Shown: in pieces, positions 50,753 to 57,356 of the stretch
Position numbering within the stretch: the stretch's first letter is position 1
How the letters are laid out: the number at the start of each line of letters is the position of its first letter
Assembly (NCBI RefSeq): GCF_025854275.1
Contig: NZ_CP107567.1
Location: forward strand, 434,001-498,000
DNA length: 64,000 nucleotides
DNA from: Streptomyces peucetius
GTDB taxonomy: Bacteria > Actinomycetota > Actinomycetes > Streptomycetales > Streptomycetaceae
Reading direction: 5' to 3'
The notes under the pieces: model-generated
The model's input: only the letters and a program-made list of their open reading frames with translations
Told to the model about the DNA's origin: nothing
Database searches by the model: none
Position numbers and translations under genes: made by a program

Positions 50753-51478
50753 GTGCGAGTACTCCTGGTAGAAGACGATGAGCCGGTCGCCCAGTCGCTC
50801 CGGCGCGGGCTGATTCGCTATGGGTTCGAGGTGGAGTGGGTCGCCACGGGCAGGGCCGCGCTGGACGCGGACCCCGTATTCGATCTGATCCTGCTCGACC
50901 TCGGGCTGCCCGACACCGATGGGCTCGACGTGTGCCGGGCGCTCCAGAAGCGCGGAGACTCGGTCCCGATCATCGTGATCAGCGCCCGCAGCGACGAGAC
51001 CGATCGCGTCGTCGGCCTGGAGCTCGGCGCCGACGACTACGTCTCCAAGCCTTTCGGGGTGCGCGAGGTCATCGCCCGGATCAGAGCGGTCATGCGCCGC
51101 GTCACTCCGAGTCCCGCGCAGCAGGGGGCGCTCGACGCGGGCGGCCCCGACCGGTACGGGCACCGGCTGGCCGTCGACCGCAAGGCCGCCCGGGTCCACC
51201 TGGACGGCACGGAAGTGGCGCTCACCCCGAAGGAGTACGACCTGCTGGCATTCCTCACCGAGGAACCGGGCGCACTCATGTCCCGCGAACAGATCATGGA
51301 AGCGGTCTGGGACGCGAACTGGTTCGGGCCCACCAAGACGCTGGACGTGCATGTGGCCGCCCTTCGCCGCAAACTCACCGGGGCGATATCCATAGAGGCG
51401 GTGCGCGGAGTCGGTTTCCGCCTGATCGTCAACGACGGCATCAGCACCGGAGGCGACCCGGCCGGTACCACGCGATGA
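50753..51478 (+). CDS. OmpR-family response regulator
   Basis: 241-residue two-component regulator. Receiver domain with acidic pocket VEDDEP, phosphoacceptor Asp49 (LILLDLGLPD) and the Lys of DDYVSKPFGVRE; C-terminal winged helix with LTPKEYDLLAFL and VDVHVAALRRKL-like LDVHVAALRRKL. The GTG at 50753 is preferred over the in-frame GTG at 50744 because AAGG lies just before it at a usable distance. The stop overlaps the kinase gene. Confidence 0.93.
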   Translation: MRVLLVEDDEPVAQSLRRGLIRYGFEVEWVATGRAALDADPVFDLILLDLGLPDTDGLDVCRALQKRGDSVPIIVISARSDETDRVVGLELGADDYVSKPFGVREVIARIRAVMRRVTPSPAQQGALDAGGPDRYGHRLAVDRKAARVHLDGTEVALTPKEYDLLAFLTEEPGALMSREQIMEAVWDANWFGPTKTLDVHVAALRRKLTGAISIEAVRGVGFRLIVNDGISTGGDPAGTTR

Positions 51479-52881
51479 TCCGCCAGCTGATCGTCAGCTA
51501 CGTCCTGCTGGTCGCCGTCGCCGTCGCCGCCTTCACCGTGCCGGTCGCGTTCACCCTCACCGACCAACTCCGCGGCGACACCGAGTTGGCAGTGCGACGT
51601 GAGGCCACGACGATGGCGCTGCTCCTCGCCGACCCGGACCCCGCCTCCCGCGAGGCGCTGGTTCAGATGGCCGAGGCCTACGAGGACGAGACGCCGGGCA
51701 CCGTCCAGGTGATCACGGCCCAGGGAGCCGGAGTGGCGCCGCTTCAGCGGCCTGCCCGGTCCGGCGAGCCGTACGACGCCGCGCTGACCCTCGCCCTGGA
51801 GAACGGGAAACGCAGTGTCGACTGGGGCTCCACCTTCGTCTGGGGCCGGCAGCTGACGATCACCGTTCCGGCGCGGTCCCAGACCGACCCCGGCGACATA
51901 GCGGGCGCCGTACGCATCACGTACAAGACCTCGGATCTCACCGAACGGCTGTGGACGATCTGGGGCTTCCGCGCGATCCTCGCCGTCGCCGTCCTGGCCG
52001 TGGCGGCCGGCCTCGGCGCTCTGGTGGCCCGTCGGCTGACCCGTCCGCTGCGCGAACTGAACGCCATGGCGAGCCGGTTCAGCGACGGAGATCTCACCGC
52101 ACGGTCACCGGTCACCGGACCGGCGGAGACCCAGACACTGGCACGCACGCTCAATCAGGGTGCCGAGCGCCTCGACACTCTGGTCGCGGCCCAGCGCATC
52201 TTCGTCGCCGACGCCTCGCACCAGCTCCGCACACCCCTGACGGCGCTGCGGCTGTCCCTCGACAACATCGCGGACGGAATCGACGACGACTTCGTCCGCC
52301 AGGACGTTGATCAGGCCACCGCGGAGGTGGTGCGGATGAGCCGGCTCGTCAACGGGCTGCTGGTGCTGGCCCGGGCGGAGGCCAAGGTGTCGGCCGTCGA
52401 GCCGCTCCCCCTGCGGGAGACGGTGGAGGAGCGGCTCTCGGTGTGGCGGCCGGCCGCCGACGAGCGAGGAGTGGCGATCACGCTGGCGAAGGAGTTCGAC
52501 GGCCGGCTGCAGGCGCTGTCCAGTCCCGGCCACCTCGAGCAGGTGCTGGACAACGTGCTCTCCAACGCCCTGGCAGTCTCTCCCGACGGCGGGACGATAA
52601 CCGTGCGGGCGGAAGTCCAGCCGGACGAGGTGGTACTGGAGATCCTGGACCAGGGCCCCGGCATGTCGGCCGCCGAGCAGTCGCGGGCCTTCGACCGGTT
52701 CTGGCGTGGCCAGGGACTGACCGGCAGGTCCGGGTCGGGGCTCGGTCTCGCCATCGCCAAGCAGCTGGTGACCGACGACGGCGGCCGCGTCGCCCTGCGG
52801 GACGCTCCGGGCGGCGGGCTCTGCGTGCGGATCGCGCTGCGGCTCAGCTCCCGGCAGGCATCACCGAGGAGTGGTGGCTGA
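51475..52881 (+). CDS. Sensor histidine kinase
   Basis: 468-residue membrane kinase. First transmembrane helix at residues 5-28, an extracytoplasmic sensing region to about 160, second helix (AILAVAVLAVAAGLGALVA), HAMP linker, HisKA with His249 (DASHQLRTPLTALRLSL), then HATPase with the N box LDNVLSNALAVSPDGG and G boxes ILDQGPGMSAAEQ and SGSGLGLAIAKQL. ATGA overlap with the response regulator. The sensed signal is not evident from neighbours. Confidence 0.93.
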   Translation: MIRQLIVSYVLLVAVAVAAFTVPVAFTLTDQLRGDTELAVRREATTMALLLADPDPASREALVQMAEAYEDETPGTVQVITAQGAGVAPLQRPARSGEPYDAALTLALENGKRSVDWGSTFVWGRQLTITVPARSQTDPGDIAGAVRITYKTSDLTERLWTIWGFRAILAVAVLAVAAGLGALVARRLTRPLRELNAMASRFSDGDLTARSPVTGPAETQTLARTLNQGAERLDTLVAAQRIFVADASHQLRTPLTALRLSLDNIADGIDDDFVRQDVDQATAEVVRMSRLVNGLLVLARAEAKVSAVEPLPLRETVEERLSVWRPAADERGVAITLAKEFDGRLQALSSPGHLEQVLDNVLSNALAVSPDGGTITVRAEVQPDEVVLEILDQGPGMSAAEQSRAFDRFWRGQGLTGRSGSGLGLAIAKQLVTDDGGRVALRDAPGGGLCVRIALRLSSRQASPRSGG

Positions 52882-52987
52882 CGACGAGGGAGTGGTGGCC
52901 GACGTCGAGCCGTTCGGCGCCGCGCCTCCCGTACTCGTACGGGTACACGTACGTCCCGCGGTGCGACTGCCCGCCGCCTCGACACAC
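52844..52987 (-). CDS. Possible 47-residue protein downstream of TPP riboswitch
   Basis: A GTG-started frame immediately after the riboswitch reads RGTYVYPYEYG and then a His/Ser-rich stretch (VGHHSLVVSHHSSVM). It runs 38 bases into the 3' end of the kinase gene on the other strand. No family recognised, no good ribosome site; it is offered because it is the only frame the riboswitch could serve here. Confidence 0.25.
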   Translation of the reverse strand: MCRGGGQSHRGTYVYPYEYGRRGAERLDVGHHSLVVSHHSSVMPAGS

Positions 52988-53006
52988 GAAAAACCTACGA
53001 GACGGG

Positions 53007-53103
53007 CTCCCTGCGCCGGCATTGTCCGGATCAGGTGATGGGGGTCGTCCTCCGGTCTTCCGACCTTCAGACCTCTCAGCCCGACCGTCGACGTCGGCCC
53101 CGG
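53007..53103 (-). ncRNA. TPP (THI-box) riboswitch
   Basis: On the minus strand, in order: GGGGCCGAC (consensus GGGGYGCC region), GGGCTGAGAGG (CUGAGA bulge at 53074-53079), a variable GGTCGGAAGACC hairpin, then CACCTGATCCGGACAATG and GCCGGCGCAGGGAG, which together are the conserved thiamine-pyrophosphate aptamer core. The P1 closing stem is weak by eye. The 340-base interval between the kinase and sulfur-carrier genes contains no thiamine gene. An inverted repeat GCACTA-N6-TAGTGC (53160-53177) lies upstream of the aptamer. Confidence 0.85.
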
Positions 53104-53221
53104 CGGCAACTTCCGCCAAAGTCGGCTACTCCGGTCGAACTCCCTCGCTCGCCCCGTAGGCACTACCAGGATAGTGCTCGACGCGCACTCGCAAAAGGGG
53201 TGAAACCATAGAAATTGACCC

Positions 53222-53566
53222 TTATCGCCCGGCTTGTGTTTCAGCGGACCGCGCCGGTCCCGCGAAGCCCCGCGGCCGGTGCCAGGGCGCATCGGGGCGG
53301 GTGGGCGTCGGCCGCGCGGCGAGGTGGAGGGCGTAGACGTCCCGATCGTGGTCAGGGACGGGTCCGAGGTAGTGGTGGCCGGTCATGTGACACCAGGCGG
53401 GCAGGTCCAGCGGGGCGGCCGGGTCGGTGGCGATGACGTGAACGACGGTGCCCGGTTCGGCGCCGTCGATCTCTTCGCGGAGGCGGAGCAGGAGGGTGAC
53501 GCACAGCAGGCCGGTGCCGTCGACGGTGATGTCCGGCGCGGGGCTCTCGTGATTCATGGGGCTCAT
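53222..53566 (-). CDS. TusA-family sulfur carrier protein
   Basis: 114 residues; TusA-like proteins carry persulfide sulfur between desulfurases or rhodaneses and acceptors. GTGLLCVTLLLRLREEID holds the conserved Cys at the start of the first helix (usual motif CP.P, here CVT), and DPAAPLDLPAWCHMTGHHYLG is the family's second half with a further Cys. The C-terminal 30 residues are Pro/Arg-rich. Starts by ATGA overlap with the MFS gene. Confidence 0.85.
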   Translation of the reverse strand: MSPMNHESPAPDITVDGTGLLCVTLLLRLREEIDGAEPGTVVHVIATDPAAPLDLPAWCHMTGHHYLGPVPDHDRDVYALHLAARPTPTRPDAPWHRPRGFAGPARSAETQAGR

Positions 53567-54828
53567 CGGCGGTACGCGGTGGCAGCGACGGCGGGCAGGA
53601 GGGCGAGGGAAAGGATGCCGCCGGTGAGGGCGAGGGCGGGGTAGCCGGTGGCGGCGACCATGATGCCGGAGGCCATACCGCCGGTGGCGCCGGCGATCGC
53701 GATGGAGACGTCGACCAGGCCCTGGGTCTTTGCGCGGGTGGCCAGTGGCACGGTGTCCGTGATGATCGCCGTACCGGCCACGAGGCCGAAGTTCCAGCCC
53801 AGCCCCAGCAGCGCGAGAGCAAGCGCGAGGAGGCCGACGGAGTCCCCGGGTGCCGCGGCGGCGAGGACCCCGGAGGCCAGCAGGGTGACGCCGGAGGCGG
53901 CGGCGATCCTCATGCGGCCGTAGCGGTCGACAAGCCAGCCGGTCAGCGGAGAGGGCAGGTACATGGCGCCGATGTGGACGGCGATGACGAAGCCGGAGGC
54001 GGCGGTGCCGTGGCCGTGGTCGTGCATGTGGATCGGCGTCATGGTCATGATCGCGACCATGACGAGCTGGGTGAGGACCATGACCAGCGCGCCGAGGACG
54101 ACGCCCCCGCCACCCGCGCTCGTGTCGTCGACGTCGGCGGCCGGGTGCGCAGAGGCGTCGGCTTCCTTCACCCGGGCCACGGTGCGGGCCAGGAGGAGCG
54201 GGTCGGGGCGCAGCCAGAGGGCGAGAACGAGCGCGGCCAGTGCGTATGCCGCACCGGAGAGGATGAAGGGCCCCGCGAGATTCGGGATGCCGAGGTTTTC
54301 GGCGAGCGTTCCGGTCGGGGCGGCGAGGTTGGGGCCGGCAACGCCGCCGAGGGTGGTGGCGACCAGGACGGTGGAGACGGCCCGGCCCCGGTGGCCGGGT
54401 GCGGCGAGGTCGGCTCCGGCGTAGCGGGCCTGGAGGTTGGTGGCGGTGCCGGCGCCGTAGACGAACAGGGCGATGAACAGCAGCACCGGGTCGTCCAGGA
54501 CGGCGGCGATGATGACGCCCGCGGAACCGATGGCGCCTATGAGGTATCCGGTCGCGAGTCCGGGGCGGCGGCCGCGGGCCTGGGAGATGCGTCCGACGGC
54601 GACGGCGGCCAGCGCGGATCCGGCGGTGAACAGGGCGCTTGGCAGTCCGGCGAGGCCGGTGGAGCCGAGCATGTCCTGGGCGAGGAGAGCGCCGACGGTG
54701 ACGCCGGCGGCCAGGCCCGCGCCGCTCAGGACCTGGGAGGCGACCAGGACGCGCAGGACGCGGCGCTGCGCCTGGGCGGGGTCGGACATGTGGGCCGTCG
54801 TGTCGGCGGGGGCGGCGCTGCTGGTCAT
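53563..54828 (-). CDS. MFS transporter in sulfur locus
   Basis: 421-residue transporter with about 12 hydrophobic segments (SQVLSGAGLAAGVTVGALLAQ, GRISQARGRRPGLATGYLIG, GWLVDRYGRMRIAAASG). Start at the ATG following GGAAGAG; the long frame upstream is the remnant of a cysteine desulfurase. Co-operonic with the TusA-like gene. Cargo may be a sulfur compound, by context only. Confidence 0.88.
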   Translation of the reverse strand: MTSSAAPADTTAHMSDPAQAQRRVLRVLVASQVLSGAGLAAGVTVGALLAQDMLGSTGLAGLPSALFTAGSALAAVAVGRISQARGRRPGLATGYLIGAIGSAGVIIAAVLDDPVLLFIALFVYGAGTATNLQARYAGADLAAPGHRGRAVSTVLVATTLGGVAGPNLAAPTGTLAENLGIPNLAGPFILSGAAYALAALVLALWLRPDPLLLARTVARVKEADASAHPAADVDDTSAGGGGVVLGALVMVLTQLVMVAIMTMTPIHMHDHGHGTAASGFVIAVHIGAMYLPSPLTGWLVDRYGRMRIAAASGVTLLASGVLAAAAPGDSVGLLALALALLGLGWNFGLVAGTAIITDTVPLATRAKTQGLVDVSIAIAGATGGMASGIMVAATGYPALALTGGILSLALLPAVAATAYRR

Positions 54829-54939
54829 GTTCTCTTCCGGGACAGGGGTGCGGGCGGGGTGGCGCACCGGCACGGGTCCGGTTCCGGGGGCTGGGGTCCG
54901 GTGCGCAAGGGGATGTGTTCGCCAGTCGGCGTCGAGGGC

Positions 54940-55115
54940 CTGGGTGAGGTCGGCGGTCAGATCGGCAACCCGGATGCGGGCCTCGGCCGGCGCCGGGCGA
55001 GGCTTCTCGGCGCGGGGTGGCCGCTGGAGGGGTTGCCGAATTCCGTCGGACACGGCGGCATGGCCTGGGCGACGCGCGGGTCGACCGGTGCGGTGGCGTT
55101 GTGATCGAGGCGGAC
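54940..55115 (-). pseudogene. Truncated, frameshifted cysteine desulfurase (NifS/IscS-like) N-terminus
   Basis: RLDHNATAPVDPRVAQAM and EFGNPSSGH are the unmistakable start of class V cysteine desulfurases. Shortly after, the reading continues in another frame (AEARIRVADLTADL) and then stops resembling the family; the PLP Lys and catalytic Cys regions are absent and the MFS gene follows. The locus has thus lost its desulfurase. Confidence 0.8.
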
Positions 55116-55127
55116 CGGTCCGCCGGC

Positions 55128-55199
55128 CGGTCCCCGGTGCGGCGCGCCGGCCGGTCCCGGGTGCGGAAGGCCCGCCGGTCCCGGGTGCGGCGGGAGGTC
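55128..55199. repeat. Three 24-base tandem repeats
   Basis: Units begin at 55128, 55152 and 55176 with the shared core CGGTCCCGGGTGCGG (first unit one base different). They lie between the ArsR-rhodanese stop and the desulfurase remnant and could encode PGPAG-type repeats in the minus frame. Slippage here may relate to the decay of the desulfurase gene. Confidence 0.8.
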
Positions 55200-55213
55200 G
55201 CCGCCCGGGCCGG

Positions 55214-55903
55214 TCACGTCAGGTCCGAGGCGTCGACGGGCAGTTCCGAAAGGCGCCACTCCAGCATGCCGTCGTTGAGACGGATCGCCCGACGCCCGCA
55301 GCCGGTCAGCAGCCGCACCGCGTCGTAGGCGAGGACGCAGTACTCGCCGCGGCAGTAGACGACGATCTCGGCCTCCTCGGGCAGTTCGTCGATCCGCTCG
55401 GCCAGCTCCTCGGCCGGAATGGAGATCGCGCCCGGAATGTGCCCGGCCCGGTATTCCTCCACCGGCCGGACGTCCAGCATGACGACGCCCCCGGACTCCA
55501 CCCGGGCCCGCAGTTCTTCGCGAGAGACTTCCGCCCCAGCGTCCTGCCCGAGGTAGGCGTCGCGGGCGGCCGGGACCGTCGCCTGGTGCTTCTCGGCGAC
55601 CTTGCGCAGCAACGCGAACAGCTGGGCGACGTCGTCGCCGGCCAGTCGGTAGTGGATGCGCACGCCCTCGCGTCGGGTGGCCACGAACCCGGCCTGCTTG
55701 AGGATCTGCAGATGCGCCGACGCGGTGGTCAGGTTCAGGCCCGCCGCCTTCGCCAGCGCGTCGACAGTGCGCTCGCCCTGGGCCAGCAGATCCAGCAGCT
55801 CCAGTCGCTTTCCGCTGGCCAGCGCCTTGCCGCCGGCCGCGAACGCGTCGTACAGCCGCGACTTCGTCGCGCTCTTCGTGTTCTCCGGCAAGACATCCTC
55901 CAT
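55214..55903 (-). CDS. ArsR-family regulator fused to a rhodanese domain
   Basis: 229 residues. Winged helix about 15-95 (ERTVDALAKAAGLNLTTASAHL) without cysteines, then a rhodanese domain about 120-225 with the active-site loop Cys184-RGEY-Cys189. The fusion suggests that the rhodanese part senses or carries persulfide sulfur and alters DNA binding. Start at the ATG in a palindromic promoter segment; a longer frame upstream is less likely. Divergent from the persulfide-dioxygenase-like gene 73 bases away. Confidence 0.9.
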   Translation of the reverse strand: MEDVLPENTKSATKSRLYDAFAAGGKALASGKRLELLDLLAQGERTVDALAKAAGLNLTTASAHLQILKQAGFVATRREGVRIHYRLAGDDVAQLFALLRKVAEKHQATVPAARDAYLGQDAGAEVSREELRARVESGGVVMLDVRPVEEYRAGHIPGAISIPAEELAERIDELPEEAEIVVYCRGEYCVLAYDAVRLLTGCGRRAIRLNDGMLEWRLSELPVDASDLT

Positions 55904-55904
55904 A

Positions 55905-55916
55905 AATCCATGGATT
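55905..55916. promoter_or_regulatory. Probable ArsR operator in divergent sulfur promoter
   Basis: AATCCATGGATT is a perfect 12-base palindrome in an AT-rich patch, beginning two bases upstream of the regulator's ATG and 60 bases before the divergent gene. Placement fits autoregulation and joint control of both directions. Confidence 0.65.
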
Positions 55917-55976
55917 ATTGTAGATGAGTGAGGGGATCGTGACCACACACCCTGTTCCGAGATCTTGGAGGAGGCC

Positions 55977-57356
55977 ATGGGCTTCGCGGACGATCACCTC
56001 GTCCCGCTCGTAGACGAAGGGCTGGGCAACAGCGCTTATCTGCTCGACCTCGGTGACGGCCGCGCCCTGGCCATGGATGCCAGTCGTGACCTGCGCGCCC
56101 TGCACGCGGCGGCCGAGCGGCGCGGCCTGCATGTCGCGTTCGCCGCGGACACGCATCTGCACGCCGACTTCCTGTCCGGCGCCGTCCAGCTCGGCCACGA
56201 CGCCGGCGCAACGGTGCTCGCCTCCGCGGCCGGCCGCCGCGCCTTCGCCCACCGGGGCCTCGCGGACGGTGACGAGGTCGACCTGGGCGGCCTGACGCTG
56301 CGGGCCCTGGCCACGCCGGGGCACACCGACGAGCACCTGTCGTTCCTGCTGCTGGACGGCTCCCGGGAGCTCGGGGTGTTCACCGGCGGGTCGCTGATCG
56401 TCGGCTCCGCCGCCCGCACCGACCTCCTGGGCGCCGACCGTACGGAGGAGCTGGCCCGCGCCCAGTACCGGTCGCTGAAGCGGCTGACCGCGCTGCCGGA
56501 CGAGACCGCGGTGTGGCCGACCCACGGCGCCGGGTCCTTCTGCTCAGCCCCGCCCGGCACCGAGCGCACCACCACCATCGGCGCACAGAAGCAGACCAAC
56601 GCGCTGCTCGGCGCGCCCGACGAGGACACCTTCGCGTCCCGGCTGACCGCGAGCCTGGGCACCTACCCCGCGTACTTCGACCGGCTCGCCGAGATCAACC
56701 GCCGCGGCCCCGCCGTGCTGACCGCGGATCCGCTGCTGCCCGCCCTGTCCCCCCAGCAGGTCCGGGCCCTGACAGCCGAGGGCGGCCACGTCGTCGACGT
56801 CCGGCCGGCCGCCGACTACGCCGCCGGTCACATCCCCGGCTCCCTGTCCATCCCCCTGCGCGACCAGTTCGCCACCTGGCTCGGCTGGCTCCTGCCCGAC
56901 ACCGCGCCTCTGGCGTTCGTCACCGGCGAGGACCAGGATCCGAGTGAGATCGTCCGGCAGGCATACAAGATCGGATACGAGCGCCTCGCCGGCCGCCTCG
57001 CCGGCGGCATGAGCGCCTGGCTCGCCGACGGCAACCGCCGGACCACCACCGCGTTCGTCACCGCCGACCGCGCCGCGGGCCGTCCCTACGTCGATGTGCG
57101 GCAGGAATCCGAGTTCGCCGCCGGGCACGTCCCGGACGCGGTGCACCTCGAGCTCGGCGGCCTTCCCGCTGCTGCCGCCGATGCCCCGCACGGTCCGGTC
57201 GTGGCCTGCGGGCACGGCGAACGCGCCATGACCGCCGCCAGCCTCCTGGAGCGTGCCGGCCACACCGATGTCGCCGTCCTCGACGGCGGACCGGCCGACT
57301 ACGCCGCCCACCACGGACTGCGGCTCGTGAAGGGAACCGAGAACACCCGCTCGTGA
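55977..57356 (+). CDS. MBL-fold persulfide dioxygenase-like protein with two rhodanese domains
   Basis: 459 residues. Metallo-beta-lactamase fold (about 1-240) with iron/zinc motif DTHLHADFLSG, TPGHTDEHLS and PTHGAGS, as in ETHE1/Blh-type persulfide dioxygenases that oxidise glutathione or low-molecular-weight persulfide to sulfite. The first rhodanese domain (about 255-350) has FVTGEDQDP in place of a catalytic Cys; the second has CGHGER with one Cys. GGAGGAGG precedes the ATG. Overlaps the MFS gene (GTGA). Works with the ArsR-rhodanese and TusA-like proteins in sulfide/persulfide handling. Confidence 0.9.
   Translation: MGFADDHLVPLVDEGLGNSAYLLDLGDGRALAMDASRDLRALHAAAERRGLHVAFAADTHLHADFLSGAVQLGHDAGATVLASAAGRRAFAHRGLADGDEVDLGGLTLRALATPGHTDEHLSFLLLDGSRELGVFTGGSLIVGSAARTDLLGADRTEELARAQYRSLKRLTALPDETAVWPTHGAGSFCSAPPGTERTTTIGAQKQTNALLGAPDEDTFASRLTASLGTYPAYFDRLAEINRRGPAVLTADPLLPALSPQQVRALTAEGGHVVDVRPAADYAAGHIPGSLSIPLRDQFATWLGWLLPDTAPLAFVTGEDQDPSEIVRQAYKIGYERLAGRLAGGMSAWLADGNRRTTTAFVTADRAAGRPYVDVRQESEFAAGHVPDAVHLELGGLPAAAADAPHGPVVACGHGERAMTAASLLERAGHTDVAVLDGGPADYAAHHGLRLVKGTENTRS

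Follow-up and report, generated by a model that had tools for sequence, protein, structure and literature searches.

Riboswitches that sense thiamine pyrophosphate (TPP) rank with the best-studied RNA sensors and are known as cis-acting leaders of thiamine-related genes. The locus considered here raises the question of what a TPP aptamer does with no such gene behind it. It lies on the minus strand of a 64,000-nucleotide (nt) stretch of Streptomyces peucetius DNA (assembly GCF_025854275.1, contig NZ_CP107567.1, positions 434,001 to 498,000), which is called the window throughout and whose own numbering is used for all of its positions, and it faces the end of a histidine kinase gene on the opposite strand. 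The explanation that fits best, to which we assign a probability of roughly 0.7, is that this element is an autonomous noncoding RNA gene of the Streptomycetaceae whose product would bind TPP and act in trans, away from its own locus. The sequence and structure of the element are conserved, a promoter-like box precedes it, its closing helix joins the two ends of the RNA, the motifs of the TPP pocket are kept in most copies, and it occurs, one copy per genome, in many sites with no consistent neighbour and no consistent target in cis; it is this combination that argues for an independent, trans-acting RNA gene. Labels beginning with L and G denote individual loci and genomes.

Identity and extent of the element

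A default Rfam scan of the window reports no match to the TPP riboswitch family (RF00059). At a relaxed threshold, applied to a 1.1-kb stretch, RF00059 matches positions 53111-52991 on the minus strand with 40.3 bits (expectation value, E, 3.5e-6), below its gathering score of 54.3 bits. Across the whole genome (8.05 Mb, one contig) the same model gives four matches, of 67.5, 62.4, 47.7 and 40.3 bits, and the element is the weakest of them (E 6.1e-6 at that scale). The other three precede a solute-binding protein gene (by Pfam; probably a component of a thiamine ATP-binding cassette transporter), a thiO-like gene followed by a thiS-like frame (both recognized by eye) and thiC (Pfam), and since these sites front genes of such a kind, the window element is an extra, orphan site. 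The thiC riboswitch of this genome (L003, 1501-1633) likewise falls below the gathering score, at 47.7 against 54.3 bits.

Relatives of the element were found by DNA similarity. When window positions 52840-53260 were used as the query against 150 Streptomyces genomes, 48 of them, the window's own genome included, gave strong matches (E 1.4e-13 or better). Those in the 47 others are confined to query positions 87-304, a span that holds the promoter region, then the aptamer and a few more bases. In the re-oriented alignment of these relatives the conserved block begins with the -10-like box TATCCT, continues with GCCTACG..GGCGAGYGAGGGAG, and has at its far end CGTCTCGTAGGT followed by a T-rich stretch, past which there is just a weak common tail; the short tail after the closing helix P1 is tandemly repeated in some genomes (L073, L139). 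A covariance model built from relatives of the element, R1, scores the window element at 191.7 bits (E 1.8e-51), the window being one of its 30 training sequences.

An earlier note on this DNA had proposed an orphan TPP aptamer on the minus strand, and this holds up. The strand that it gave stands, and its coordinates, 53103-52844, give way to a predicted RNA at 53161-52989 (Table 1).

Secondary structure and the TPP pocket

The fold was derived with RNAalifold from a MAFFT alignment of 30 sequences (A1), made independently of the covariance model, and it comprises 50 pairs, 15 of them with compensatory changes on both sides. P1, of 12 base pairs, joins both ends of the RNA, and P3 is formed by AGUUCGACCG/CGGUCGGGCU, interrupted by an inserted internal loop and hairpin; in L024 a change of ACCG to AGCG within P3 is matched by CGGT to CGCT on the opposite side. 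A second alignment, A3, with 92 distinct rows, was aligned to the model and so favours its structure; in it 28 pairs are changed on both sides against a shuffle mean of 12.5, and pairing holds in 96.4% of cells against 35-49% when the partner strand is slid. Of the 98 rows behind A3, 63 were found with a search pattern in which the pyrophosphate sensor and much of the 3' strand of P1 are fixed, so that invariance there is partly by construction, and the shortened copies L101-L104, together with L072, L074 and L081, are left out of it. P4 and P5 are invariant, and covariation is uninformative about them. All of the helices of a TPP riboswitch, P1 to P5, can be assigned, with P3 enlarged. The window RNA folds at -85.7 kcal/mol (z score -3.2), a value that beats all 200 of 200 shuffles. 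The P3 arm is near-palindromic, and R1 gives weak scores of 18-26 bits on the opposite strand too in L067, L068, L071, L072, L074, L077, L078, L079, L081 and L085.

The enlarged P3 arm is also the likely cause of the low Rfam score, since in L008, L009 and L225 the RF00059 match covers the whole RNA and yet stays below the threshold; in the window the Rfam alignment places P2 and P3 on an inner segment. None of 20 relatives reaches the gathering score of RF00059, 14 of them match at E <=0.01, and 6 give no match. The earlier note had named a covariance score below threshold as grounds for giving up the aptamer. Formally the score is below, and we do not take this as refuting the aptamer, because relatives found first by DNA similarity share a covarying fold, shuffled sequences are beaten, and the motifs are intact.

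Those motifs, CUGAGA and the pyrophosphate-sensor sequence, are both intact in the window element. Thirty-five rows that were found without the pattern, a set that again leaves out L101-L104, L072, L074 and L081, all have CUGAGA and are 94-100% conserved at 24 of the 30 positions of 53036-53007; in the complete set of 42 such copies both motifs are held by 38, the four shortened copies being those that fail. Two of these (L101 and L102, in G013 and G110; 160 nt) have lost the P4/P5 sensor and read CTGAGG, with the promoter-like box, P1 and P3 extension still in place. The other two (L103 and L104, in G148 and G106; 114 nt), at the ferredoxin-TetR site, are without CUGAGA, P3a, P4 and P5 and retain the P1 strands, the P3 extension and the -10-like box, while differing from one another at several hairpin positions.

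Table 1. Features of the element and its surroundings, in window positions
Feature	Position	Strand	Basis or remark
TPP-aptamer RNA, predicted stand-alone transcript of about 173 nt	52989..53161	-	R1, 191.7 bits; block conserved in relatives
-10-like box TATCCT	53168..53173	-	counterpart of the T-A-rich box (-14 to -9) in the 149-element profile
Weak -35-like box TTGCGA	53189..53194	-	T-rich block around -36/-35 in the profile; 15-nt spacer to the -10 box, which is short
P1, 5' strand	53150..53161	-	closing helix with compensatory changes
P1, 3' strand	52993..53004	-	closing helix with compensatory changes; followed by a T-run at 52993-52989, T-rich in the profile too
P3, 5' strand AGTTCGACCG	53132..53141	-	covariation
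P3 extension, internal loop and variable hairpin	53088..53131	-	unseen in the 15 canonical TPP riboswitches compared
P3, 3' strand CGGTCGGGCT	53078..53087	-	covariation
CUGAGA, pyrimidine-sensor motif	53074..53079	-	first two bases also end P3; in 38/42 copies not chosen by pattern
P3a hairpin	53047..53072	-	compensatory changes
Pyrophosphate sensor P4/P5 (ACCUGAUCCGG...CCGGCG.AGGGA)	53008..53036	-	conserved positions; motif in 38/42 copies
47-codon GTG frame, judged not a gene	52844..52987	-	unconserved
Histidine kinase gene (HAMP, HisKA, HATPase_c), convergent neighbour outside the element	51475..52881	+	Pfam
TusA-like sulfurtransferase gene, upstream neighbour outside the element	53222..53566	-	Pfam

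Promoter-like region and 3' end

A profile of 149 distinct elements, derived from 160 entries with L133 and L183 (cut at a contig end) left out, has an A-rich block at about -55, a T-rich block at about -36/-35, a T-A-rich box at -14 to -9 and a G at the predicted start; in the window the -10-like and -35-like boxes lie 2 nt nearer to the RNA than in the profile. After P1 a T is found in 76% of elements at +3 and in 63% at +4 (n=148). The P1 duplex has a median energy of -19.0 kcal/mol (n=38), compared with -4.7 in canonical TPP riboswitches (n=15), and its predicted pairing in the ligand-free RNA is 0.985 in the window, with a median of 0.71 over 38 elements.

Distribution

R1 finds the element in 49 of 150 Streptomyces genomes, always as a single match. 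In a sample of 101 genomes from the family, 17 carry it with a score of at least 89 bits, the next match there having 50.2 bits, and among 246 genomes from the class it is found in 5, one of the five lying outside the Streptomycetaceae. A search with the pattern of the 3' part gave at least 120 stretches of named genomes, with Streptomyces, Kitasatospora and Actinacidiphila among the matches listed; laboratory strains such as S. viridochromogenes DSM 40736 and S. griseofuscus DSM 40191 are included. R1 matched all 120 of these, of which two are truncated where the stretch ends, as well as L225.

Genomic context

Downstream neighbours were taken from a simple open reading frame caller, which gave a gene for 147 of the 149 distinct elements; 127 of these genes are convergent and 20 lie on the same strand (12 within 300 nt). 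In the same comparison each of 15 canonical TPP riboswitches has a gene on its own strand within 71 nt, these controls having been reduced from 16 to 15 by removal of L052 (G234:C29), which matches with 50 bits and has the appearance of a decayed copy of the element and not of a canonical riboswitch, with CTGAGC for CTGAGA and no P4/P5. Many elements share common sites (75 face one TetR family and 18 one cysteine desulfurase family), and the orientation counts are therefore not independent. Altogether the 149 elements occupy sites with 72 neighbour combinations.

Among 33 downstream neighbours scanned with Pfam, 20 on the same strand and 13 convergent, no thi family was found; the 13 represent 13 of 26 convergent families, namely those of TetR, the cysteine desulfurase and the window's kinase plus ten others. 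Of the 20 on the same strand 17 gave a Pfam hit, with cold-shock proteins, SpoIIE phosphatases, a serpin, a luciferase-like monooxygenase and a sulfate transporter among them. The position upstream of a thiamine gene that marks a cis-acting riboswitch is not seen with the neighbours scanned; in the window the kinase gene is convergent, and 107 bases separate its stop codon from the predicted end of the RNA. A function common to the neighbours was considered and set aside, as TetR with ferredoxin, cysteine desulfurase, cold-shock proteins and others indicate no single pathway.

At the commonest site the neighbour is a TetR gene, which is found in 112 of 121 genomes of the genus. Among 30 TetR loci examined the element adjoins the gene in 17, and 13 came out without it, seven of which come from genomes without an R1 match (G011, G061, G067, G068, G070, G079 and G107); of the other element-free loci some belong to genomes that carry the element elsewhere, and one negative (L231) is an artefact of a truncated locus. 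At one of the empty ferredoxin-TetR sites (L228, in G067) 23 bases match the P5 region (87%, E 0.027), and their position suggests loss by deletion, the match alone being weak. In the window genome, too, the ferredoxin-TetR site is empty, and the RNA is found instead at 487 kb, beside the TusA gene. A TusA gene like that of the window is present in 22 of 295 genomes of the genus, and when 20 such loci were scanned with R1 to 1.5 kb on each side the RNA was found at the window's own locus alone and at none of the 19 relatives' loci, a result that bears in part on the earlier note's check for a thi gene at this position in close relatives.

Two observations on surrounding genes may be recorded here. 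Beside the element, at window positions 53222-57356, lies a set of sulfur-related genes, for the TusA-like protein, an MFS transporter, an ArsR-rhodanese protein and a protein with two rhodanese matches (Pfam). In L031 a cobalamin riboswitch match just above its gathering score (2347-2418) lies about 630 bases downstream of the element.

Proposed mode of action

Transcription would start at or near 53161 from the element's own promoter and yield an RNA of about 173 nt, which is predicted to fold as a TPP aptamer with both ends closed by the long P1 and with an enlarged P3 arm, and to end in or shortly after the T-rich stretch. To judge from the pocket motifs, this RNA most likely binds TPP and is most likely TPP-responsive, in that TPP occupancy would set its stability or its fold, and by way of either it may act in trans on messenger RNAs or on a protein. 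Neither an expression platform nor a cis target gene was found for the element. A bolder version, in which the RNA uses bound TPP for catalysis, has no positive support.

Several results weigh against an autonomous, TPP-sensing RNA gene. Two thirds of the genus sample has no R1 match. A simple scan of the window for a consensus (sigma-70) promoter and for a terminator found neither, and the tail of the element is just partly U-rich; since the scan found neither signal, transcription from the element's own promoter and the 3' end of the RNA are put forward here as predictions. Ligand-free pairing of P1 is predicted to exceed 0.9 in just 14 of the 38 elements, so that a switch by TPP-dependent closing of P1 is possible. 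The shortened copies L101-L104 may be either decaying or derivatives that work without TPP. When orientation is counted per downstream gene family, 25 families are convergent and 16 on the same strand, with one tie (42 families, p 0.21), a count on which the convergent bias was dropped as a sign of antisense function; orientation at the level of families fits an element that is indifferent to its neighbour.

Alternative explanations

An unlikely alternative is that the aptamer is embedded in a terminator, the long P1 and the following Us stopping transcription when TPP is bound and letting it read through without TPP, so as to produce RNA antisense to the convergent gene, here that of the histidine kinase. 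The T-rich stretch after P1 is what such a switch calls for, as is a convergent gene in 127 of 147 cases with its end at a median distance of 33 nt, and in silico the ligand-free pairing of P1 is below 0.9 in 24 of 38 elements. A riboswitch for hydroxymethylpyrimidine pyrophosphate reportedly has an aptamer embedded in this manner, its own helix possibly being the terminator; it is said to have another ligand and another fold, and to act in cis. However, the genes downstream of the element belong to 42 families, of which 16 share the element's strand in most cases, the TetR gene at the commonest site persists in genomes without an R1 match (7 of 30 TetR loci), and the simple scan found no terminator. 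The earlier note's suggestion of a thiamine-dependent antisense RNA to the kinase message loses its footing with this variation in the downstream gene from genome to genome.

It is improbable that the element is a relic, that is, a TPP riboswitch whose thi gene has been lost, as the earlier note had also considered. The shortened copies L101 and L102 (160 nt) and L103 and L104 (114 nt) would suit a relic, as would the decayed look of L052 and the fact that 7 of the 49 matches in the genus are 162 nt or shorter, but covariation, the pocket motifs and the promoter-like box are kept in most copies, across dozens of genomes, the long P1 and the P3 extension were unseen in the 15 canonical riboswitches compared, and the 33 neighbours scanned include no thi family.

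Equally improbable is a small mobile or selfish DNA element that contains an aptamer by chance and whose terminal inverted repeats are the arms of P1. The 72 neighbour combinations among 149 elements could be read in this way, and so could the three copies within 80 kb in G228 (L088, L089 and L090, at G228:C1 133984, 193851 and 209936), the sole case of several copies above 89 bits in the family sample. Against this stand the single match per genome in 49 of 49, the conserved promoter-like box outside the repeats and the covariation within the RNA; no match was found in viral contigs with the 3' pattern or in phages with blastn, and the one plasmid record with the element is a 5.7-Mb Embleya replicon.

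Least probable is that the element serves as the leader for a small protein whose frame lies immediately behind it. The 47-codon GTG frame pointed out in the earlier note does exist at 52987-52844 on the minus strand, and a start codon lies 4-13 nt past P1 in 109 of 147 elements, but the frame is unconserved (beyond query position 304 its region has short, weak matches elsewhere, with E 2.3e-7 or weaker). Its counterparts vary in length, the shortest having 3 codons and the longest running past the end of the sequence read (median 73), to the eye their translations seem unrelated, and the other two frames have a greater median length (104.5).

Relation to known RNAs

The element shares with the TPP riboswitch or THI element (RF00059) the P1-P5 plan, CUGAGA and the pyrophosphate-sensor sequence, and differs from it in its sub-threshold score, enlarged P3, long P1 and the promoter-like box at its 5' end, as well as in that most copies have no close gene on the same strand and no thi gene is among the neighbours scanned. 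For comparison within the genus, S. lividans is described in the accessible text of PMC8079986 as having two TPP riboswitches, before a thiG operon and before thiamine transport genes, and S. ambofaciens, in that of PMC8388888, as having one.

Closer in kind are small RNAs derived from riboswitches and thought to act in trans, SreA and Rli55 of Listeria and EutX of Enterococcus (PMC8383071, in the part available), which like the element hold a metabolite aptamer within a small RNA. SreA senses S-adenosylmethionine and arises as the terminated leader of a gene behind it, and Rli55 and EutX sense B12 (PMC8383071, same part). The element carries a TPP aptamer instead and, having no consistent downstream partner, does not appear as an RNA released from a gene leader. 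Barrick and Breaker (2007; PMC2258182, in the sections available) noted a handful of high-scoring, apparently functional aptamers with no related gene behind them and offered two explanations, trans-acting antisense RNAs or recent orphaning. In contrast to those orphans the element fails to reach the Rfam threshold and belongs to a conserved family, for which recent orphaning is unlikely. The accessible parts of PMC11109978 and PMC3738593 hold nothing that matches the element, and no description of it was found in the open-licence literature of PubMed Central, a search outside which most subscription papers fall.

Implications

Because none of 20 relatives reaches the Rfam threshold, default annotation would miss the element in about a third of Streptomyces genomes. 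The shortened copies, which have no TPP sensor, provide a natural means of testing which part of the RNA is responsible for its function. If the trans-acting explanation is true, a conserved family with a TPP pocket and no gene to control would represent an aptamer turned independent RNA, and it may be, as we propose tentatively and at somewhat less than even odds, that this is a new class of bacterial noncoding RNA in which a TPP sensor stands as its own gene and signals how much TPP there is to targets at other places in the genome. The question whether orphan aptamers act in trans or are debris, which goes back to Barrick and Breaker (2007), would then become directly testable in cultivable streptomycetes.
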